Source of the DNA: Polaromonas sp.
GTDB lineage: Bacteria > Pseudomonadota > Gammaproteobacteria > Burkholderiales > Burkholderiaceae_C
DNA: 64,000 nt
Assembly (NCBI GenBank): GCA_013298815.1
Contig: JAAFJF010000006.1
Span: forward strand, 505 to 64,504
Direction: 5' to 3'
Part shown: piece by piece, positions 886 to 49,433 of the stretch
Numbering within the stretch: the first letter of the stretch is position 1
How the letters are laid out: the number at the start of each line of letters is the position of its first letter
Program-made: the position numbers and the translations under genes
Notes under the pieces: generated by a model
Databases searched by the model: none
Seen by the model: only the letters and a program-made list of their open reading frames with translations
What the model was told of the DNA's origin: nothing

Positions 886-908
886 AAGAATCTCGCTTTA
901 GAGAATTT

Positions 909-1925
909 TTAAACCAGTTTTACCAACTGTTTGCCGAAATTTTTGCCACTAAGTAAACCTAAAAATGCCTCAGGTGCAGATTCAATTCCCGAAGCGATAG
1001 ATTCGCGGAATTTCAATTTTCCAGTTGCCACCAAGCCGCCTAATTCTCTCAAAGCTTCTGGCCAATGCTCCATGTGCTCAGACACAATGAAGCCTTGCAT
1101 CAACAAGCGACTCATCAAAAACAACTGTGGCTGCGTGATAGGTACGGGCACGCCGTTATAGCCTGCAATCATGCCGCATAGCGCGATGCGACCAAATGCG
1201 TTCATATTACTCAACACTGCATCTAATATTGCACCACCTACGTTTTCAAAGTAGCAATCAACGCCATTTGGGGCAGCTTCTCGCAAAGCTTTGTACAAAG
1301 ACTTGGCATCAGGGAAAGCCTTGTAATCAATACAAGCATCAAAATCTAGCTCGTCAACAACATACTTGCATTTGTCAGCTCCTCCAGCAAAGCCAACAAC
1401 GCGGCAGCCTTGGGCTTTTGCAAGCTGGCCAACCACGCTACCCACTGCACCGCTGGCTGCACTGACAACAACAGTTTCACCGGTTTTTGGCTGGCAAATT
1501 TTCATGAGTCCATACCAAGCGGTCACACCAGGCATGCCGACTGCACCCAAATAGGCGCTCAGCGGTATGTGTGCTGTGTCAACTTTACGCATCGCGCCGA
1601 GAGCATTACCGTCAACCACGCTGTATTGCTGCCAGCCACCCATGCCAACAACTTTGTCACCCACTGCATATTTGGCGTGCCGGCTTTCGATCACCTCTCC
1701 CGCCGTGCCACCGCCCATGACTTGACCCAATGCTTGCGCAGCAGCGTAACTTTTGCTGTCGTTCATACGACCACGCATGTAGGGGTCTAGACTAAGAAAG
1801 TGATGTTGCACCAGCACTTCGCCTTCTTGCAAAGCTGGCGTTGTACTGTTAATTAACTTGAAATTACTTGCAACAGCAGCACCGGTTGGACGGTTATCTA
1901 AATGGATTTGGATATTATTTGGCAT
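909..1925 (-). CDS. MDR-family NADP-dependent oxidoreductase (2-alkenal/enone reductase type)
   Basis: This 338-residue protein belongs to the medium-chain dehydrogenase/reductase family, in the zinc-free prostaglandin reductase/CurA-like branch. It carries the early motif LDPYMRGRM, then the nucleotide-binding glycine-rich segment AASGAVGSVVGQLAK around residues 155-170, and the FENVGGAILDAVL motif. No zinc-ligand cysteine cluster is seen. Known members reduce alpha,beta-unsaturated aldehydes or ketones with NADPH, which suits a place in a fatty-acid degradation operon. It sits 31 nt downstream of the thioesterase and 23 nt upstream of the GST. The substrate is inferred only at class level. 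Confidence 0.88.
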   Translation of the reverse strand: MPNNIQIHLDNRPTGAAVASNFKLINSTTPALQEGEVLVQHHFLSLDPYMRGRMNDSKSYAAAQALGQVMGGGTAGEVIESRHAKYAVGDKVVGMGGWQQYSVVDGNALGAMRKVDTAHIPLSAYLGAVGMPGVTAWYGLMKICQPKTGETVVVSAASGAVGSVVGQLAKAQGCRVVGFAGGADKCKYVVDELDFDACIDYKAFPDAKSLYKALREAAPNGVDCYFENVGGAILDAVLSNMNAFGRIALCGMIAGYNGVPVPITQPQLFLMSRLLMQGFIVSEHMEHWPEALRELGGLVATGKLKFRESIASGIESAPEAFLGLLSGKNFGKQLVKLV

Positions 1926-27473: not shown

Positions 27474-28697
27474 TCACTCGTCGAACATATTTGAAATCAA
27501 ATCTTCCTTAGAAGTCTGCAGGGAATTACCAACGGCGCGCTCCACCTCGCCATCCGACGCCACCAGCCCACCCACCCGCACCCCCAGCAAACGCAGCCGC
27601 TTCGTCAGTGGAATGCGCTTCAGGCACAGTCCCGCCGCTTGGCGAATCGTTTTCGGGTCAGCGGTGTAAACATCCAGCGTCTGGTCGCGCGTCGCGGCTT
27701 TGAAGTCGTCATAACGCAGTTTGATGCCTATGGTTTTACCCAAATAGCCCTTGCGCTGCAGGTCGCCTGCCAGTTTGTCACACAGCTCGGTAAAAATCGC
27801 GCCCAGCTCGGCTTTGTCGCGCACGGCATGCAAATCGCGGTCAAAGGTGGTTTCACGGCTGATGGACACCGGCTCGCTGCTCAGCGAAATCGGGTTGTCG
27901 TCGCGCCCCCAACTGGCCCGATGCAGCCACGCCCCTGTGCTTTTGCCGAAGTTGGCAACCAGCCAGGCTTCGTCTTTGGCCGCCAGCTCGCCAATGGTGG
28001 TGATGCCGTTGTTAATGAGCTTTTCATCCATTTTCGGCCCCACGCCGTTGATTTTCCGGCAGGTCAGCGGCCAGATCATCGTTTGCAAATCTTCTTCTAA
28101 AACGATAGAGACGCCGTTCGGTTTGTTGAACTCACTGGCCATTTTGGCGAGCAGCTTGTTGGGCGCGACACCAACGGAACAAGTCAACCCCGTCCGCTCA
28201 AAAATCGTCTGCTGAATCAACTTCGCCAACGCCCTGCCACCCTGTCGCTGACCGCCCGGCACGTCGGTGAAGTCGATATACACCTCGTCCACCCCCCGGT
28301 TTTCCATCAGCGGCGTGAATTCCAGAATCGTCTCTTTGAATATCCGCGAGAAATGCCGATATTGCTCAAAATCCACCGGCAATATGATGGCATCAGGACA
28401 CAGCTTGGCCGCCTTCATCAGCCCCATAGCCGACCCCACCCCAAACTGCCGCGCCGCATAAGTAGCCGTCGTAATCACCCCCCGCCCCACATAATCCTTC
28501 AGCCGCGCAAACGCCTCCACAGGAATATCAGCCCGCGTCTGTCCCTCTGCTAGCTGCTCAATAGCCTCATCCACCTTGCGCCGCCCACCACCAATGACAA
28601 CCGGCAACCCCTTGAGTTGCGGATAGCGCAGCAACTCCACAGATGCGTAAAAAGCATCCATGTCGAGGTGGGCGATTCGGCGGATTTGGGGGGTCAT
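27474..28697 (-). CDS. dinB: DNA polymerase IV
   Basis: The 407-residue Y-family translesion polymerase has the first carboxylates in HLDMDAFYASVELL and the second acidic site in RGVDEVYIDFTD. TCSVGVAPNKLLAKMASEFNKPNG and a helix-hairpin-helix with CRKINGVGPKMDEKL follow, then the little-finger domain. It bypasses damaged template at low fidelity. No beta-clamp motif was verified at the C-terminus. A single gene; no LexA box was identified by eye. Confidence 0.94.
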   Translation of the reverse strand: MTPQIRRIAHLDMDAFYASVELLRYPQLKGLPVVIGGGRRKVDEAIEQLAEGQTRADIPVEAFARLKDYVGRGVITTATYAARQFGVGSAMGLMKAAKLCPDAIILPVDFEQYRHFSRIFKETILEFTPLMENRGVDEVYIDFTDVPGGQRQGGRALAKLIQQTIFERTGLTCSVGVAPNKLLAKMASEFNKPNGVSIVLEEDLQTMIWPLTCRKINGVGPKMDEKLINNGITTIGELAAKDEAWLVANFGKSTGAWLHRASWGRDDNPISLSSEPVSISRETTFDRDLHAVRDKAELGAIFTELCDKLAGDLQRKGYLGKTIGIKLRYDDFKAATRDQTLDVYTADPKTIRQAAGLCLKRIPLTKRLRLLGVRVGGLVASDGEVERAVGNSLQTSKEDLISNMFDE

Positions 28698-28778
28698 GAG
28701 CGAATTATTATGTGCAGACGATATGTGTCTTGCAAATGAAGTTACCAGCTACGTAAATCACTAATACTAACTGCTGCT

Positions 28779-29135
28779 TTACGGCTTTACTTTGGACAGC
28801 CAGTCTTCAAACCACTCAATAGGTAGCCTCTCGTCTTCGAACGAACGTGAGCGTAATTCTTCAATTTGATAAGTATTGATAAGGTACAAATCCCACTGGG
28901 TTTCAACATCGGCAAGAATTGGGAGCAAACTTTCAATTTCTGGTGGTGCGTCGACCTCAATGTATTGACACCAAAATCGGTCGCACCACTCGGCAATTTG
29001 TTTGTGGGAGTGCGGCGCCCCAACAGGATGCGCACCCCACTCAAGCACCTTGATCACTGCCTCACGTGTGAACGGGAGCGTGACTGGGCTAAAACTCAAA
29101 CTCGTTGACGATACTGAGCTCATCGGAGCTGACAT
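28779..29135 (-). CDS. hypothetical protein
   Basis: I do not recognise this 118-residue frame. Its composition is protein-like and acidic: SHKQIAEWCDRFWCQYIEV, then LLPILADVETQWDLYLI, then LPIEWFEDWLSKVKP. No signal or membrane segment is seen. It lies alone between dinB and a repeat-rich gap. The start could lie downstream of the first ATG, because the first 20 residues are Ser/Thr-rich. Confidence 0.55.
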   Translation of the reverse strand: MSAPMSSVSSTSLSFSPVTLPFTREAVIKVLEWGAHPVGAPHSHKQIAEWCDRFWCQYIEVDAPPEIESLLPILADVETQWDLYLINTYQIEELRSRSFEDERLPIEWFEDWLSKVKP

Positions 29136-29268
29136 TTTTCAATTAATTTACACATTACGACTCCTCAATACAACCGATTTTCGTAAGTCTACCCCGAAGC
29201 ATTTAAGTATTCCACAAAACTTCCAGTCGGTAGGTCAAAACTTAAAAGCCAACCCTCAAATGAAGGCT

Positions 29269-29298
29269 CCTTCTTTCGCCCGGCGGGGCGAGAGAAGG
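29269..29298. repeat. GC-rich palindromic intergenic element
   Basis: CCTTCTTTCGCCC pairs with GGGCGAGAGAAGG around a short GGCG loop, and G-rich DNA follows (GGGGGATGAGAGTGGGGG). This layout resembles short palindromic intergenic repeats of many proteobacteria. Only one copy was seen in the window. Confidence 0.55.
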
Positions 29299-29358
29299 CG
29301 GGGGATGAGAGTGGGGGAAACACGCCAGCTTGCACAGCTACAAAACACTATAAATAAA

Positions 29359-29390
29359 ATAGCTGCTCAGGCAATAAATACGCTGGCTAT
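29359..29390 (+). repeat. dispersed repeat copy f (intergenic)
   Basis: The core reads ATAGCTGCTCAGGCA, then ATAAATACGC, then TGGCTAT, preceded by ACTATAAATAAA. It is nearly the consensus. Confidence 0.85.
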
Positions 29391-29420
29391 AGTCACACTT
29401 ACCCCCCTAAAAAGAACCAA

Positions 29421-30173
29421 TCAATCCACCAATTCACGCAATCCCCAAGCCTTCGGCAACTCCCCCGACGGTGGAATAACGAAATTGCCTGCGGGGGCGG
29501 TTTGCAAAACTTGCTCTACCAAGTTGGCGATTTGGGTAACGCGCAGCGGGGCTTGGTTGGCGGGGATCATGTATTTGCCGATACCTAGCATCCAATTTGC
29601 GACCCGTTCCAAGTAATTTCCAGTTTTAACCGCAATATCCGTTTGCGCCATGCGCATGAAAATAACGCGCTCAAAACCTAGCGTCGTGACCACTTGCTCA
29701 TCCAAACTTGCCAAACCTTGCTGCAACGCAGCAGGCAACATGCCAGGCTGGTGTGGCAAAACGACGACCAAATGGCGTATGCCGCTGGCGTACAGCCACT
29801 TGGCCAAAGCGGGGAGTTCGCTGGGGTACGGCGTCCAAATCGTACGTTCGCGGGCGTAGAACATGCGCGGTGGTTCAAACATGACAACGGCTGTTTGGAT
29901 GCGATCTTTGGGTTTCAAAGGTAACCAATCTGCCACCGCTTGCGTAACAGGCAACACTTTGACCCCAGCCATCGCGGCATGAAAGTCTTCCGTCGCCATC
30001 AGCGCCACATGACGGTAACGCCCCAAACTGACTGAAGCCACCAAGCGGCGCACCACCTCGCCACCCAATTTACCACCACCACCCGCAACCAGCACTGCGC
30101 CAAACTGAGGCTTAGCTATGGGTTTTAGGTACTGGCTGGCGGATATGGCAGTGGTTACGTCTAATGAATTCAA
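29421..30173 (-). CDS. NAD(P)-binding Rossmann-fold protein, unknown function
   Basis: The 250 residues contain a Rossmann start AVLVAGGGGKLGGEVVRRLVAS near residues 26-47, consistent with an atypical SDR/NmrA-like fold. Later segments (ALAKWLYASGIRHLVVVLPHQPG and FERVIFMRMAQTD) suit a nucleoside-diphosphate-sugar epimerase-like protein without the classical YxxxK. I do not recognise a specific function. A dispersed repeat lies just upstream of its start. Confidence 0.7.
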   Translation of the reverse strand: MNSLDVTTAISASQYLKPIAKPQFGAVLVAGGGGKLGGEVVRRLVASVSLGRYRHVALMATEDFHAAMAGVKVLPVTQAVADWLPLKPKDRIQTAVVMFEPPRMFYARERTIWTPYPSELPALAKWLYASGIRHLVVVLPHQPGMLPAALQQGLASLDEQVVTTLGFERVIFMRMAQTDIAVKTGNYLERVANWMLGIGKYMIPANQAPLRVTQIANLVEQVLQTAPAGNFVIPPSGELPKAWGLRELVD

Positions 30174-30192
30174 TATATTTACTATAAATAAT

Positions 30193-30224
30193 GTAGCTAC
30201 TTAGGCAATTAATACGCTGGCTAG
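30193..30224 (+). repeat. dispersed repeat copy g (intergenic)
   Basis: The core reads GTAGCTACTTAGGCA, then ATTAATACGC, then TGGCTAG, preceded by TTACTATAAATA. It lies between the Rossmann-fold gene start and the lactate dehydrogenase stop. Confidence 0.85.
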
Positions 30225-30273
30225 AGGCCAAAAACAGCCCCCAAATAGCCTTAATCAGTCTTAAATAGCCCGT

Positions 30274-31419
30274 TTAGTACGTTCCAGGCAGCAAAATCCC
30301 TTTATCCACATGCTGGATATTGGTATGCCCACAAAACGCCATCGTGATGTCCAGCTCTTTGTGGATGATTTGCAGCGCTTTGGTCACGCCCGCCTCGCCC
30401 ATGGCACCTAGGCCGTACACCATGGCGCGGCCGATGAGCACGCCTTTGGCACCCAGCGCCCAGGCTTTGAGCACGTCTTGCCCAGAGCGGATGCCGCCGT
30501 CCATCCAGACTTCGATCTGGTCGCCGACCGCCGCCACAATCGGTGGCAGCGCCTTGATGCTGGATTGAGCACCATCAAGTTGCCGGCCGCCGTGGTTGCT
30601 AACCACAATCGCGTCTGCACCAGTTTCAACCGCGAGTTTGGCGTCTTCCACGTCCTGGATGCCCTTCAAAATCAGCTTGCCACCCCATTGGGCTTTGACC
30701 CATTTGACGTCCTCCCACGACAGGCGCGGGTCGAACTGTTCGTTGGTCCAAACGGCTAGCGAATTCATGTCGCTCACGGCTTTGACGTGGCCGACCAGAT
30801 TACCGAAGCTGCGGCGTTTGGTGCCCAGCATGCCGAAACACCAACGCAGCTTGGTGGATAAATTGATGATGTTGGCAATGGTCGGGCGCGGCGGCGCGGT
30901 CAAGCCGTTTTTCAGGTCTTTGTGGCGTTGGCCGATGACTTGCAAATCCAGCGTCAGCACCAAAGCGCTGCATTTGGCGGCTTTGCAGCGGTCTATCATG
31001 CGAGCCATGGCGTCGCGGTCGCGCATCATGTAGAGCTGAAACATGAAGGGCGCGGTGGTGTTGGCTGCTATGTCTTCGATGGAGCAGATGCTCATGGTCG
31101 ACAAAATGAAGGGGATGCCGAACTTCTCTGCCGCTTTGGCCGCTTTGATTTCGCCATCGGCGCTTTGCATGCCGGTCAAACCGACGGGTGCAATGGCGAC
31201 GGGCATTTTGGCATCTACACCGACCATTTTGGTGGCTGTGGTGCGGTTTTCCATGTTCACGGCGACGCGCTGGCGCAGTTTGATGCTTTGAAAATCAGCC
31301 TCGTTCGCGCGATAAGTGCCTTCCGTCCACGAACCGGAATCAGCGTAGTCGTAAAACATCTTGGGTACGCGTTTTTTGTATAGAACGCGCAGGTCTTCTA
31401 TGGTGGTGATGACGGTCAT
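30274..31419 (-). CDS. FMN-dependent L-lactate dehydrogenase / alpha-hydroxy-acid oxidase (LldD-like)
   Basis: The 381-residue TIM-barrel flavoenzyme oxidises an L-2-hydroxy acid to the 2-oxo acid. Motifs seen are PKMFYDYADSGSWTE, PVAIAPVGLTGMQ, FQLYMMRDRDAM and VSNHGGRQLDGAQSS with the catalytic His and substrate Arg, then DGGIRSGQDVLKAWALGAKGVLIGR for FMN phosphate binding. The length is typical for membrane-associated LldD. L-lactate is the likeliest substrate, but mandelate or glycolate are possible. Confidence 0.92.
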   Translation of the reverse strand: MTVITTIEDLRVLYKKRVPKMFYDYADSGSWTEGTYRANEADFQSIKLRQRVAVNMENRTTATKMVGVDAKMPVAIAPVGLTGMQSADGEIKAAKAAEKFGIPFILSTMSICSIEDIAANTTAPFMFQLYMMRDRDAMARMIDRCKAAKCSALVLTLDLQVIGQRHKDLKNGLTAPPRPTIANIINLSTKLRWCFGMLGTKRRSFGNLVGHVKAVSDMNSLAVWTNEQFDPRLSWEDVKWVKAQWGGKLILKGIQDVEDAKLAVETGADAIVVSNHGGRQLDGAQSSIKALPPIVAAVGDQIEVWMDGGIRSGQDVLKAWALGAKGVLIGRAMVYGLGAMGEAGVTKALQIIHKELDITMAFCGHTNIQHVDKGILLPGTY

Positions 31420-45861: not shown

Positions 45862-45894
45862 ATGGCTTTGTAGCCCAAACTTGCTATTATATTT

Positions 45895-45926
45895 ATAGCT
45901 TCTTAGGCAGCAAATACGCTGGGTAT
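45895..45926 (+). repeat. dispersed repeat copy k (intergenic)
   Basis: The core reads ATAGCTTCTTAGGCA, then GCAAATACGC, then TGGGTAT. It lies between two convergent genes and runs directly into an AT-rich hairpin. Confidence 0.85.
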
Positions 45927-45930
45927 AGCT

Positions 45931-45959
45931 ATATTTATGCCATATTTTGGCATAAATAT
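45931..45959. terminator. bidirectional hairpin between convergent genes
   Basis: ATATTTATGCC-atatttt-GGCATAAATAT is a perfect 11-bp inverted repeat immediately after a dispersed repeat copy. It lies between the convergent epimerase-like and S49 peptidase genes. It lacks a GC-rich stem, so termination is plausible but not assured; it may be part of the extended repeat. Confidence 0.5.
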
Positions 45960-45982: not shown

Positions 45983-47011
45983 TTATTGAACCGCTGGAAC
46001 CGTCTTCAAGGCCTTCACAGCGCCTTCTCCGATGGATGCGCCAAACCGCTTGACCAATTTCTCAGCCACGTTGTCGCGCTTGGTGTAGTCAATCAAATCT
46101 GGCGCTTTAACGACTTCGCGGGCGACAAAATCTAAGGTGCCGATTTTGTCAGCCAAGCCCAGCTCAACCGCTTGCTGACCGCTCCAAAACAGACCGGTGA
46201 AGGTCTCAGGCGTTTCTTTGAGGCGCTCGCCACGGCCTTTTTTGACCACGGCTATGAATTGCTGATGAATTTGGTTCAACATGCCTTGCGTGAAGGCGCG
46301 GTGTTTCTCGGTTTGCGGGCTGAACGGATCCATGAAACCCTTGTTTTCGCCAGCCGTCATCAAACGGCGCTCTACGCCCAGCTTTTCCATCAAACCCGTG
46401 AAGCCAAAACCGTCCATCAGTACGCCAATGCTGCCGACAATGCTGGCTTTGTCCACATAAATTTGGTCTGCGGCCACGGCGATGTAGTACGCTGCTGATG
46501 CGCAAGTTTCTTCCACCACGGCATACACTGGCTTTTTGTGCAGTGCTTTGAGGCGATAAATCTCATCGTTGATCATGCCAGCCTGCACAGGGCTGCCGCC
46601 TGGGGAATTGATGAGCAGCACCACGGCTTTCGCGCCTTTGTCCTCAAACGCGCTGCGCAGCGAGGTCATCACTTGGTCGGCACTGGTCTCGCCACCCGAG
46701 GCGATTTCGCCTTTGATCTCGATCACGGCGGTATGGTCAGCGTTCATGTCGGTAGACGGTGCGCCGCGGTCCAAAAGACTGAATGCCAGCAGCGCAAAAA
46801 ACGCCAACCAAGCCAAGCGCACAAAGGTACGCCAGCGGCGCGCTGTTTTTTGCTCCGCCATGTAATTGATGGCCAGTTTTTCTAAAGCCGTGCGCTCCCA
46901 GCTCACGGTTTGGGTGGCAGATTGCGTCGTAGCTGTAGGCTTCTCAGACTGTGAAGCTAGCGTTTGTGGTTCGTGGATGTTGTCGTTTTGGTTATCGTTC
47001 ATAAGTGCCAT
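45983..47011 (-). CDS. S49 family signal-peptide peptidase (SppA-like)
   Basis: The 342 residues have one membrane helix (RLAWLAFFALLAFSLLDRG, residues about 65-85) and a C-terminal S49 serine-protease domain: NSPGGSPVQAGMINDEI, the nucleophile Ser in CASAAYYIAVAADQIYV and IVGSIGVLMDGFG. It degrades cleaved signal peptides or membrane-protein fragments in the periplasm. The start could also be the ATG three codons later (MNDNQ). It lies downstream of the Rieske gene (64 nt). Confidence 0.92.
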   Translation of the reverse strand: MALMNDNQNDNIHEPQTLASQSEKPTATTQSATQTVSWERTALEKLAINYMAEQKTARRWRTFVRLAWLAFFALLAFSLLDRGAPSTDMNADHTAVIEIKGEIASGGETSADQVMTSLRSAFEDKGAKAVVLLINSPGGSPVQAGMINDEIYRLKALHKKPVYAVVEETCASAAYYIAVAADQIYVDKASIVGSIGVLMDGFGFTGLMEKLGVERRLMTAGENKGFMDPFSPQTEKHRAFTQGMLNQIHQQFIAVVKKGRGERLKETPETFTGLFWSGQQAVELGLADKIGTLDFVAREVVKAPDLIDYTKRDNVAEKLVKRFGASIGEGAVKALKTVPAVQ

Positions 47012-47075: not shown

Positions 47076-47471
47076 TCAAAATTCCAGCGGCTTCAAGTTA
47101 TATGCAGTATGCCAGTGAACCACGCCGCGCTCCTCGCTCAGGGCAATTTTCACCAACCCGCCATTGCACGGCCCACCCACACAATCACCCGTCTCAGGGC
47201 TAAATTCCGCCCCGTGGGACGAGCAAACCAGCCACTGGCCATCACGGTCAAATACCTTGTTGGGCTGCAAATCCAGCTCCATCGCCACGTGACTGCAACG
47301 GTTCAAGTAAGCCTGCGGCAAGCCCTCAAACCGAATCGCAAACGCCCGACATGTCTGCCCCGCATAAACCACATCAAACGGCACAGCCAAGCCACCGTCT
47401 TGCAGATCGGTTGAATTGCAGAGTGGTAATTGCTCAGATGGGGTTACAAATTGGATGGTGGATTCGGTCAT
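47076..47471 (-). CDS. Rieske 2Fe-2S domain protein
   Basis: The 131 residues form one Rieske domain with the cluster ligands Cys-x-His in RCSHVAMEL and Cys-x-x-His in VCSSHGAEF, then GDCVGGPCNGGL. It is a ferredoxin-like electron carrier of unknown partner. It normally sits beside the HAD phosphatase in related genomes; here a toxin-antitoxin module and dispersed repeats separate the two. A diverged copy of its first ~20 codons lies on the far side of that module. Confidence 0.9.
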   Translation of the reverse strand: MTESTIQFVTPSEQLPLCNSTDLQDGGLAVPFDVVYAGQTCRAFAIRFEGLPQAYLNRCSHVAMELDLQPNKVFDRDGQWLVCSSHGAEFSPETGDCVGGPCNGGLVKIALSEERGVVHWHTAYNLKPLEF

Positions 47472-47540
47472 TTTTACTATTAATTTGATAGCTGTTTAGG
47501 CAATAAATACGCTGGCTATAGGCATTATTTTACTGAATTT
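47407..47540. repeat. direct repeat, left copy flanking the TA module
   Basis: This stretch comprises the 5' end of the Rieske gene and its upstream dispersed repeat. It aligns with 48605-48745 in the same orientation. By eye there are about 10 differences in the 59 coding bases compared, mostly transitions. Confidence 0.75.
47488..47519 (+). repeat. dispersed repeat copy l (upstream of the Rieske gene)
   Basis: The core reads ATAGCTGTTTAGGCA, then ATAAATACGC, then TGGCTAT, preceded by TTACTATTAATTTG. It lies 17 bp from the Rieske start codon. Confidence 0.9.
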
Positions 47541-47546
47541 AGTCAT

Positions 47547-48140
47547 TTAACGAACACCTAAAACTGTTTTTGCCCAAATTGGTAAATCAGTGACACCTTC
47601 AATTAAAGCACCTTTTCTGCAAGTGGCGATGTGCTCCAAACCACTGCTCTGTATATCTTGAGAGTCGTATAGGAATGCAGCATCTGCCAGCGGTATCGCT
47701 TTGGCAAGATTGGCTAATGTCCTAGGATAGCGGGATAAGATTTTGTCAGTCGGCACGTCGTGCCCACCCTCAAGTACTCGCTGTCTGACGCGTTCAACCA
47801 GTATTTCTGGGTTATCAAGAGCAACAACGTAGAGGACAATTTGATAACCCGCTTGTTTTGCATGCTCAATCAAGTCGATTTTCGACGCGTGCGAGAAAAC
47901 AGTTTCACTAGCGAACGAGCGTTTTTCCTGTATCAAATTGCTGCGTCTGCCTTCTGCCCAACTTCGCGCAGCTTCAGTGCGTTTGAGAGGGTTTTTGATA
48001 TGTTTGAGATGCTCACGCTCGTAAATATCAGCATTGATGAATTCAAGTTTTGAATCAATCAACCCCTCAGCCAGCAGTGCCCAGTACAAGGATGACTTGC
48101 CCGCGCCATTGGGGCCGGCGAGCAAGTGAAAAATAGGCAT
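47547..48140 (-). CDS. zeta-toxin-like P-loop kinase
   Basis: The 197 residues have a P-loop GPNGAGKSS (residues 9-17), INADIYEREHLK with a candidate catalytic Asp, SFASETVFSHASKIDLIEHAK and the substrate-loop motif RVRQRVLEGGHDVP. This is the pattern of small zeta-like (COG4185-type) proteins. Zeta toxins phosphorylate UDP-N-acetylglucosamine and so stop cell-wall synthesis; activity here is inferred from family. The gene follows a ParD-like antitoxin gene by 23 nt, so the pair looks like a TA module. Confidence 0.83.
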   Translation of the reverse strand: MPIFHLLAGPNGAGKSSLYWALLAEGLIDSKLEFINADIYEREHLKHIKNPLKRTEAARSWAEGRRSNLIQEKRSFASETVFSHASKIDLIEHAKQAGYQIVLYVVALDNPEILVERVRQRVLEGGHDVPTDKILSRYPRTLANLAKAIPLADAAFLYDSQDIQSSGLEHIATCRKGALIEGVTDLPIWAKTVLGVR

Positions 48141-48163
48141 TAAAAATGAGCGATGAGAAAAAT

Positions 48164-48511
48164 TTAACCCACAAGCGCTTGATTTGCTGTCACGATGGTA
48201 TGAAATTGCCGTTTCAACGCACCACTGTTGTTCGCGATACTCATTTTGGCTATATGCGCTTCTAACGAGTCACTGCCAGCATTGGTCTCATTGCCAGCAG
48301 TATCTTGCTGCAGCGCCTGCTCCGCTTGCAAAATCGTCAACCCGCTGGCTTCCATTTTTCGCCCCAAAGCAGCCCAATACTCAATTTGCCCCGCCGTTGA
48401 ACGGCGAAACGTCTGCGCAGATTCCTTAGCTGCGCTAACCAAAGCCGCAGGCAATTTGACAGACAGGTGGCTAGGCGCAACTGGAGGGCTCACAAGTGCT
48501 TCAAGCATCAC
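48164..48511 (-). CDS. ParD-like antitoxin
   Basis: The 115 residues include VKLPAALVSAAKESAQTF followed by RRSTAGQIEYWAALGRKMEASG, the ribbon-helix-helix/helix pattern of ParD-like TA antitoxins, and a variable C-terminus that would bind the toxin. It is the upstream gene of the pair, as expected for an autoregulated antitoxin. The start could be at the second ATG (48508). Confidence 0.75.
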   Translation of the reverse strand: MMLEALVSPPVAPSHLSVKLPAALVSAAKESAQTFRRSTAGQIEYWAALGRKMEASGLTILQAEQALQQDTAGNETNAGSDSLEAHIAKMSIANNSGALKRQFHTIVTANQALVG

Positions 48512-48596
48512 AACTCCTCAAAAGATGACAATGGCTATATTTTATCCAAAAAGGCAAAATGGCGCAAAAAGAGTCAAAAAGAACCAAACTTATACA

Positions 48597-48663
48597 AATC
48601 AGCTGAGTTACAGAGCGGTAATTGCTCGGATGGAGTTACGAATCGGATGGTGAATTTGGGCAT
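48597..48663 (-). pseudogene. 5' fragment of a Rieske gene
   Basis: From an ATG at 48663 the frame reads TIRFVTPSEQLPLCNSADL, against TIQFVTPSEQLPLCNSTDL at the start of the intact Rieske gene. Homology stops after about 23 codons, where sequence leading into the TA module begins. No Rieske cluster ligands are present, so it cannot make the protein. Confidence 0.8.
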
Positions 48664-48745
48664 TTGCATTGTAAATTTACTATGAATTTAATAGCTGCTT
48701 AGGCAATGAATATGCTGGCTAGAGGCATATTTGATGCCATTTTAG
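48605..48745. repeat. direct repeat, right copy flanking the TA module
   Basis: This is the partner of 47407-47540: a remnant Rieske start plus a dispersed repeat. It ends about 17 bp before the HAD phosphatase stop, where the intact Rieske promoter region would be expected. Confidence 0.75.
48691..48722 (+). repeat. dispersed repeat copy m (next to the HAD phosphatase gene)
   Basis: The core reads ATAGCTGCTTAGGCA, then ATGAATATGC, then TGGCTAG, preceded by TTACTATGAATTTA. GGCAT-atttg-ATGCC follows as a small hairpin. Confidence 0.9.
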
Positions 48746-48761
48746 AACATTTACATCGTTT

Positions 48762-49433
48762 TCAAGCAAATTCAGCCATCCAAGCGTCCAACTCTGCCAC
48801 GGAATGCGCGATGTGCAAAGGTTTGAAGGCTGCAAAGCTGTCAGGCTCATGCGCACCGTAGCTGACACCTACGCTGGCGCAGCCGGCGTTTTGCGCCATC
48901 AAGAGGTCGTGGGTGGTGTCGCCGATCATCAAGGTGCGCTCGGGCGGGACGTTGAGTTCTTCCATCAGCTCGTGCAGCATCAGCGGGTCAGGTTTGCCTG
49001 CGGTTTGGTCTGCGGTGCGGGAGGCGTGGAAAAGTCCTTTTAATTCAACGGCTTGCAGGGCATCGTCTAAGCCACGACGGCTTTTGCCGGTGGCTACTGC
49101 TAGCAAATGGTTGCGCTGTTTTAGACCTGCCAACAGCTCTAAAACGCCGCTGAACAGGGTGATGTCGTCCATGCTTTGCGCGTAGTGAAACTTATAGCGC
49201 TCGCCCAGCATGGGGTATTTGCTGGGGGGCACGTCGGGCGCGGCGTGGGCTAAGGCTTGCATCAAGCCCATGCCGATGACGTAAGAGGCGTCTTGGTCAG
49301 ACGGTTTTGCGCCGCCCACATCGACGACCGCCGCCTGGATGCTGCGGGTGATGATGGCGGTGGAGTCGAAGAGGGTGCCGTCCCAGTCGAAGGCGATTAG
49401 GTCAAATTTGCGGTCGGATTGTCTGGTTGTCAT
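48762..49433 (-). CDS. HAD-superfamily phosphatase (phosphoglycolate phosphatase-like)
   Basis: The 223 residues contain the HAD motif I nucleophile in DWDGTLFDS, motif II in VATGKSRRGLDDAL, and motifs III-IV in KPDPLMLHELMEE and MIGDTTHDLLMAQNAGC. It dephosphorylates a small phosphorylated metabolite, possibly phosphoglycolate. It follows rluC by 8 nt, so the two are an operon, consistent with the rne-rluC-HAD order in Burkholderiales. Confidence 0.9.
   Translation of the reverse strand: MTTRQSDRKFDLIAFDWDGTLFDSTAIITRSIQAAVVDVGGAKPSDQDASYVIGMGLMQALAHAAPDVPPSKYPMLGERYKFHYAQSMDDITLFSGVLELLAGLKQRNHLLAVATGKSRRGLDDALQAVELKGLFHASRTADQTAGKPDPLMLHELMEELNVPPERTLMIGDTTHDLLMAQNAGCASVGVSYGAHEPDSFAAFKPLHIAHSVAELDAWMAEFA

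Follow-up and report, generated by a model that had tools for sequence, protein, structure and literature searches.

Gene cargo between direct copies of a dispersed repeat at the HAD–Rieske site of a Polaromonas genome

Described systems and the HAD–Rieske locus

The known kinds that come closest to the arrangement described here are the minimal mobile elements (MMEs) and the dRS3 repeats of Neisseria, outlined here from excerpts of the papers cited. MMEs are different whole-gene cassettes that are found, across strains, between the same two conserved genes (PMC3082526, PMC3898611). N. meningitidis carries almost 700 short intergenic dRS3 repeats of the pattern ATTCCC-N8-GGGAAT, which are a target of the Nf1 phage integrase and whose copies have been suggested, in a figure legend, as the integration or deletion site of pilC1 (PMC3898611). 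Here we describe a zeta-toxin-like gene and a ParD-like gene that lie between direct copies of a short dispersed repeat in a stretch of 64,000 nucleotides from Polaromonas sp. (assembly GCA_013298815.1, contig JAAFJF010000006.1, positions 505 to 64,504), referred to as the window. The window stems from a Comamonadaceae genome of 3.33 Mb in 90 contigs (G000, the own genome), which forms a set of four congeners with G001, G002 (86% complete) and G003. Its nearest named relatives are a Polaromonas metagenome-assembled genome (MAG; G003, locus L030) and a Comamonadaceae MAG (G002, locus L031). Open reading frames (ORFs) were predicted with a simple caller, and some may be false.

An unprompted repeat search recovered two direct matches at this site, 47403–47486 with 48595–48678 (79% over 84 nt, spacing 1192 bp) and 47473–47525 with 48676–48728 (89% over 53 nt, spacing 1203 bp), which together represent one duplicated block consisting of the first 23 codons of a Rieske-domain gene, a short leader and the repeat. 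In copy A, the codons (47403–47471, minus strand) belong to the intact Rieske gene (47076–47471, minus strand, 131 aa; PF00355, E = 1.4e-9), the native downstream neighbour of the site, and repeat copy A lies next to them (47473–47525, plus strand; core CTAT-taatttg-ATAGC). Copy B consists of a 23-codon Rieske gene-start remnant (48595–48663, minus strand) and repeat copy B (48676–48728, plus strand; core CTAT-gaattta-ATAGC), the latter on the side of the native upstream neighbour, a HAD-family hydrolase gene (48762–49433, minus strand, 223 aa; PF13419, E = 8e-33). The zeta-like (47547–48140, minus strand) and ParD-like (48164–48511, minus strand) ORFs, both intact, are situated between the two direct block copies. 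The duplication around the pair is real; chance similarity is excluded by the length and identity of the copies and by the corresponding sites of the congeners, which hold one repeat in G002 and G001 and two in G003. A first-pass annotation of the window, made from its letters, had proposed a duplicated Rieske start with its upstream repeat and a toxin–antitoxin pair between the copies, and both proposals are borne out; its estimate of about 10 differences in 59 bases is close to the 13 in 69 that separate the two Rieske starts when counted from the ATG.

Among 80 related loci of the family with both the HAD and the Rieske gene, the gap between the two has a median near zero and measures at most 102 bp in 79; the sole gap of at least 300 bp is that of G003, and the strict repeat core is found in the gap only at L030 and L031. 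The site of G002 and G001 holds one repeat and no cargo, the G001 copy appearing degenerate by eye, and to the right of repeat copy B the window is collinear with this empty site in G002. At this position G003 has a different gene, which encodes a 352-aa lipoprotein-like product with an Lcl_C domain (PF07603, E = 4.6e-20), between two direct repeats that are 85% alike; this gene has no tblastn match in the window or in contig G000:C1. Because 79 of the 80 gaps are short and the strict core is confined to L030 and L031, both the ParD/zeta pair and the Lcl_C gene are read as gains, and cargo gain at the HAD–Rieske site is well supported. From the same comparison, we read the repeat as having probably entered the gap within the genus and the cargo as having come later. 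The first-pass annotation had regarded the pair as an addition, to be checked by looking for an empty HAD–repeat–Rieske arrangement in sister strains, and this is the arrangement seen in G002 and G001. Neither a toxin–antitoxin pair at the site in all relatives nor an ancestral tandem of Rieske genes, the states at odds with such an addition, was encountered: a search of three congeners (G001–G003) gave no match to zeta, and tandem Rieske genes are not ancestral, a single Rieske match being present in each of the related loci.

The remnant in copy B passes into unrelated sequence after codon 23, and no obvious repeat was seen where it joins the ParD side. By our own count, 7 of the 12 codons that changed between the two Rieske copies did so silently. 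Since silent changes are not favoured in a neutrally decaying duplicate, copy B (or A) may represent an allele from a related strain, a reading that is no more than suggestive with 13 changes. Compared by eye, the stretch VTPSEQ is common to A and B and reads TAPSEQ in G003, and copy B retains the NSADL reading of G003 and G002. At the G003 site the duplicated part is essentially the repeat alone, and the Rieske extension is particular to the allele of the window. Of the two options named in the first pass, an old duplication or arrival of the module together with flanks from a related strain, the second is compatible with the silent changes; the crossover that would have brought the module in could not be placed.

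As at an MME site, the same two genes enclose ParD–zeta in G000, the Lcl_C gene in G003 and nothing in G002 and G001. However, the excerpts describe MMEs as being incorporated solely by homologous recombination, whereas here a dispersed repeat bounds the cargo and marks the empty site. Repeat copies lie at the junctions and suggest that the crossovers took place within the repeat, although the breakpoints could be narrowed to wide ranges only. With dRS3 and the Neisseria intergenic mosaic elements (NIMEs), as far as they are described in the same excerpts, the repeat shares a short intergenic form with small inverted arms and a spacer, as well as a suggested role in the integration or deletion of genes. 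In contrast to dRS3, it lacks the pattern ATTCCC(N8)GGGAAT, it gave no blastn match in phage records, and no IS110-family gene was found in the four congeners.

The zeta-toxin-like P-loop protein (197 aa) matches PF06414 (42.2 bits at a cut-off of 22.3; E = 8e-11) as well as PF13671 and contains the Walker A motif GPNGAGKS, of which G-x-N-G-A-G-K is common to four aligned zeta proteins. It is 55 and 56% identical to its relatives at L010 (G023) and L011 (G019), and 14 of the 60 genomes searched gave a match, one of them the own genome. The candidate antitoxin (115 aa, GTG start; PF11903, E = 1.5e-8) has a counterpart directly upstream of zeta in 5 of the 15 zeta loci of other genomes (L010, L011, a partial match in L013, L014 and L020) and none at E = 1e-3 in the remaining ten; the ParD-like partner is hence an adjacent candidate antitoxin gene conserved across genera. 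PADLOC and NCBIfam assign no family to the pair, and no PDB sequence matches zeta at E = 0.01. Judged from its sequence, the pair presumably functions as a toxin–antitoxin module. The order on the minus strand is a pseudouridine synthase gene (PF00849), the HAD hydrolase gene, the block with its cargo, the Rieske gene and an S49-type peptidase gene (45983–47011), and the succession HAD–Rieske–peptidase (SppA) is also present in related loci.

Recurrence of repeat-bounded insertions

The window was compared with G003:C15 (1–80000) and contig G000:C1 with G003:C11, stretches of G002 and G001 were added, and the syntenic span examined for insertions amounts to ~190 kb. Positions preceded by A refer to G000:C1 and those preceded by C to G003:C11 from base 200001 (contig coordinate = C + 200,000). 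Sixteen insertions of at least 300 bp net were scored, with the cargo of different genomes at one site counted separately and the near-equal replacements at A 142261 and A 166980 excluded. In eight of them, each end has a repeat within 125 bp and the two repeats share the same orientation, compared with 0.85 expected when intervals of equal length are placed between intergenic points, and 0 of 200,000 simulations reached eight. In the stretches examined from this freshwater-type genus of Comamonadaceae, direct copies of one repeat family therefore enclose about half of the small gene insertions. Further cargo bounded by repeat copies, which the first-pass annotation had suggested looking for, is present not only at the HAD–Rieske site of G003 but also at these additional sites.

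For instance, a 5.8-kb cluster with a molybdopterin oxidoreductase gene (A 105109–110993) is missing in G003, which has one repeat at this position, and in G002, which has a ~50-bp gap and no repeat. A 461-aa ORF (A 114914–116536) has as its counterpart a single repeat in G003, two repeats at a distance of 1.45 kb in G001 and, in G002, other sequence beyond the repeat on each of two contig ends; the ORF gave no tblastn match in the stretches of the sister and the other congeners that were examined. An Ldh_2 and TctC pair is enclosed by repeats at A 155132–157513, and a glyoxalase-type gene at A 85503–86182 is replaced in G003 by two other repeat-bounded segments. The window contains a second site of variable content (28711–30253), located between a DinB-type polymerase gene (27474–28697, PF00817) and an FMN-dependent dehydrogenase gene (30274–31419, PF01070) and comprising a 118-aa ORF, a repeat (29341–29412), a 250-aa ORF and another repeat (30169–30253). 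In G000 this site has a repeat at one end only and none at the side of the polymerase gene; G003 has other cargo between two repeats, and G002 one repeat only. The cargo ORFs tested at this site and near 85 kb of G000:C1 gave no tblastn match in the sister stretch. A 7.4-kb cluster with three long ORFs at C 163099 (G003:C11:363099–370478), scored among the insertions with a repeat at neither end, has a repeat at a distance of 157 bp; its counterpart is the repeat alone in G000 (G000:C1:133208–133289) and 3.9 kb of other sequence in G002, in which no repeat was detected.

Two further tests do not depend on synteny. Of 25 pairs of neighbouring repeats separated by 150–1000 bp, 23 are direct (p = 1e-5), and when G003 is taken alone all 16 are (p = 1.5e-5). 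The direct and inverted pairs number 32 and 27 at 1–2 kb, and 75 and 69 (n = 144) at more than 3 kb. The copies bounding the eight insertions agree on average at 44.4 of 57 bases, compared with 38.3 for random pairs (p = 3e-5), the outer two copies having been used for an array of three repeats. Neither the bias towards direct pairs nor the likeness of bounding copies is predicted by independent insertion of two repeats.

One gene has changed its site between G000 and G003. A 408-aa ORF of G003 (G003:C11:336752–337978) is 81–82% identical to a 392-aa ORF of G000 (G000:C1:262256–263434), and in each genome it is flanked on both sides by direct repeats (units G003:C11:336681–338165 and G000:C1:261434–263508) and has the same orientation relative to them. 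A single strong match exists in each of G000 and G003, only a weak one (E = 8e-4) in G001 and none in G002. The sequences adjoining the G000 copy correspond to ~261.7–267.6 kb of G003:C11, a region without the gene, and those adjoining the G003 copy to a place near 160.3 kb of A that lacks both the gene and the repeats. At the DNA level the two copies are homologous from within the gene as far as the interior of the 3′ repeat, and their upstream regions cannot be aligned. This is the one clear relocation among 90 ORF tests, in which most other matches keep their neighbourhood; the pair at C 227961–229446 has a match in A that is also located elsewhere.

Explanations for the repeat-bounded cargo

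We hypothesize that recombination at the dispersed repeats inserts, moves and swaps cargo, which we regard as the probable explanation. An ancestor of the genus would have carried one ~55-bp dispersed repeat between the HAD and Rieske genes, at which the own lineage would have gained the foreign ParD/zeta module and G003, independently, the lipoprotein gene, both additions leaving the repeat as direct copies that flank the cargo. Incoming DNA with another copy of the repeat, taken up by transformation or another route, may pair with the resident repeat, and the addition could be completed via crossovers in two repeats, via a circle, or via homology at one end combined with illegitimate joining at the opposite end. 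The 69-bp Rieske duplication would be accounted for by a one-sided join within an allelic copy from a relative. Such a join would resemble homology-facilitated illegitimate recombination, a known process according to the excerpt available (PMC3240628), in that the cargo is anchored at one repeat and joined illegitimately at the opposite side, as the Rieske remnant suggests; in contrast to that process, 8 of the 11 repeat-associated insertions found here are bounded at both ends. Cargo, once in place, could be moved, swapped or, if the direct copies recombine with each other, lost, and the same process may take place at other repeat copies, mostly near gene ends. The repeat pairs, the one-sided cases, the mixed content and the relocated gene are all consistent with recombination at the repeat, which would then be the cause rather than a by-product of the exchange; the entry routes named above and a dependence on RecA are likewise presumed. 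Recombination between repeats is already known, and no new enzyme is shown here. Such a process would provide a possible route for toxin–antitoxin pairs and other small modules into core operons without a transposase of their own. The interpretation given in the first pass, that dispersed repeats act as landing or exchange sites, is supported by the recurrence and by the relocated gene; as a mechanism, a landing site is presumed, as the crossovers could not be placed and an enzyme was not found.

Several observations weigh against recombination at the repeat as a general explanation. When one mismatch is allowed, the crossover range covers 36–58 of 58 positions in six of seven cases, and the single narrow case (A167k) conflicts with another (A114k). 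Three of the 16 insertions have a repeat at one end only and five at neither end within 125 bp, so repeats are not needed for every gain; moreover, this limit was chosen after the events had been seen, and a repeat at one end at least is weakly enriched (11 compared with 7.2 expected, p = 0.04). A 1.7-kb insertion in G003 without a nearby repeat (window 886–913 compared with G003:C15:4947–6674) is a counter-example of this kind, and some events at sites other than HAD–Rieske may be losses. The bias towards direct pairs amounts to 6 direct and 2 inverted in the own genome alone (p = 0.14) and is weaker in the repeat-rich genome G061 (7 to 3 at 150–1000 bp), and the pairs of the own and the sister genome are partly shared by descent and thus not independent. 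Since 12 of the 24 close pairs listed enclose no predicted ORF of at least 70 aa, close direct pairs are not all gene cassettes, and 84 of 232 repeats fall inside ORFs predicted by the simple caller. The bounding copies differ at 8–21 of 57 bases, which makes them poor substrates for RecA. Lastly, the relocated unit G003:C11:336681–338165 occupies a place at which the three other congeners (G000, G002 and G001) carry no repeat, an outcome not predicted by simple recombination at a resident repeat.

One alternative is an ordinary deletion polymorphism: cargo that is ancestral, or that arrived by whatever means, would have been deleted in the sisters by recombination between direct repeats already in place, with one repeat left behind. 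Direct repeats facing a single copy in a sister are exactly what deletion leaves, and a stretch of G002 (G002:C57:156–1189, L170) retains two short pieces, 124 and 37 bp long, of an ORF of 279 aa that is complete in G003, which fits a loss there; the pieces are the start and the end of the ORF and lie beside other sequence, and the ORF has no match in the G000 stretch. We nevertheless consider deletion unlikely as the overall explanation, since 79 of 80 HAD–Rieske loci without cargo, together with different cargo in two congeners, require gain at that site, the congeners differ in content near 85 kb and 114 kb of G000:C1 and at the polymerase/dehydrogenase site, and deletion alone leaves one gene at two different sites in two congeners unexplained. 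It is less probable still that the repeat is a self-inserting mobile element, similar to repetitive extragenic palindromes (REPs) or miniature inverted-repeat transposable elements (MITEs), which settles near gene ends, so that flanking pairs arose independently and the variation in cargo is unrelated. Such an element would be expected in random orientation and with copies no more alike than random ones, whereas the close pairs are predominantly direct, the bounding copies are more alike and insertions coincide with repeat pairs far above expectation. What speaks for it is the preference for convergent gene ends, the location of the repeat between genes in some viral contigs, the half of the close pairs without a predicted ORF, and a copy without cargo at window 45868–45957 that is present in G000 and G003 and missing in G002.

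In pdif modules, according to the excerpts available, genes including toxin–antitoxin cargo are located between short sites of the same orientation. Integron gene cassettes likewise consist of one or more genes between same-orientation short sites and form small arrays. The repeat-bounded cargo resembles both in its same-orientation short sites, its small arrays and its toxin–antitoxin content, and the core TGCTAT-N7-ATAGC could by analogy be recognized by a site-specific recombinase through which circular gene cassettes are inserted, as in integrons or Xer/pdif modules. In line with this, inverted arms flank a variable, A/T-rich spacer of 7 nt, one gene together with its 3′ repeat occurs at two sites with the orientation of gene and repeat kept, and the spacers of bounding pairs are slightly closer than random ones (18 differences in seven pairs, mean 2.6 compared with 3.7). 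We still regard it as quite unlikely, as the cargo occurs in either orientation relative to the repeat, in contrast to the integron attC situation, and the breakpoints, at the low resolution attained, do not cluster on the spacer. Unlike in integrons, no integrase platform was identified and the sites are dispersed over the chromosome. No recombinase or fixed crossover point was found, the IS110 family and Y1_Tnp having been checked and tyrosine and serine recombinases not having been surveyed; Y1_Tnp genes occur in genomes with and without the motif. A shared spacer acting as a strict recombinase overlap was not supported, the spacers of bounding copies differing at 0–5 of 7 positions, and an IS110/Piv-type recombinase, which is absent from all four congeners and present in 4 of 14 genomes, was rejected for this genus. 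A broader, doubtful proposal regards the repeat as the attachment site for a cassette system that operates across the whole chromosome in Comamonadaceae, served by a putative recombinase or by the enzyme of an outside phage or element; several hundred core sites would then permit single genes or small operons, often a gene with its 3′ repeat, to be added, moved and removed with no integron platform.

The repeat family and its distribution

A hidden Markov model (HMM) was built from the copies of the window and the sister and iterated on 1.18 Mb (the window, the own genome, the sister and two further congeners), which yielded 241 aligned copies. The conserved core comprises (T/C)(G/A)CTAT, seven mostly A/T bases, ATAGC and TGCTTAGGCAATAAATACGCCGGCTA, and the consensus TGCTAT-N7-ATAGC-TGCTTAGGCAATAAATACGCCGGCTA belongs to an A/T-rich repeat of ~57 bp. 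The HMM finds 15 copies in the window and 59 across 289 kb of G000:C1, a density of approximately one copy per 5 kb; at least 40 scored places were obtained in the own genome, the query included, and by extrapolation a genome would contain several hundred copies. The bare core CTAT-N7-ATAGC occurs 11 times among the window matches listed, palindromic ones being counted on both strands, compared with 0.19 expected. The motif CTAT-N6-8-ATAGCTGCTNR is present in 43 of 150 genomes of the family (the own genome counted), with up to 228 copies in G061, in which the core is identical and the second half of the repeat different; a reversed control pattern gave one match in one genome (G027) among the 150. 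Although the pattern allowed spacers of 6–8 nt, the places listed have 7, as do the alignment columns of the HMM copies and of the G061 copies. The rule that repeats bound inserted genes predicts the locations of variable genes, and the presence of the core in many genera of the family makes it broadly checkable.

Among the 146 repeats that fall outside predicted ORFs, 56 are flanked by convergent genes, a configuration of 151 of the 1013 gene pairs overall, and 10 by divergent genes (150 of 1013). The orientation relative to genes is weakly biased (48 opposite and 32 same), and as a cause of the direct pairs it was rejected for this weakness. The cargo-free copy at 45868–45957 indicates that the repeat itself comes or goes. 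A structured RNA gained no support: the folding of six single copies reached at best z = -1.4 relative to shuffled sequences, and no Rfam family was detected in the window at the gathering threshold.

The repeat lies next to a Y1_Tnp gene, similar to those of REP-associated tyrosine transposases (RAYTs), in 3 of 21 loci, all of them in congeners (G000, G002 and G003). These genomes have one match each, with the repeat 46–52 bp downstream (L185 651–1407, L186 909–1754 and G003:C1:192220–192964), and G002 has another repeat 90 bp before the gene. In the other 18 loci, including those of the congener G001 and the repeat-rich G061, no strict-motif repeat was found within 700 bp of the gene. A RAYT/REP assignment was not adopted; PF01797 is present in 16 of 17 chosen repeat-bearing genomes and in 12 of 17 without the motif.

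The repeat subtype has no blastn match at E = 0.01 in phage or plasmid records, and the strict pattern none in viral contigs, two of which contain a looser pattern and 29 the general motif. In 11 of the 31 motif-bearing viral contigs, whose gene arrangement was inspected, no sign of an attachment site was seen; five (L229, L231, L242, L243 and L255) have a copy between predicted genes, and the others have copies at or inside ORFs. In the literature searched, mostly without subscription papers, no description of the repeat or of a role in carrying cargo was found; the genome paper of Polaromonas JS666, cited for MITEs in an excerpt of PMC10969869, may describe it. The betaproteobacterial repeat element (BRE), a dispersed and usually intergenic repeat reported in Comamonadaceae including Polaromonas, is given in the excerpts as 75–91 bp long in Bordetella, with 69% GC on average, and sometimes tandem (PMC3110155). 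The shorter, A/T-rich repeat described here departs from this description in length and base composition.

Two other repeated sequences were observed. An element of ~105 bp (G000:C1:122594–122696) that the repeat HMM does not report is 82–88% identical to several places in G003. At window 29240–29340 and at L111 15285–15370, a second, GC-rich block that resembles a repeat and contains a palindrome is found immediately before the A/T-rich repeat, although the two genomes differ in their cargo.

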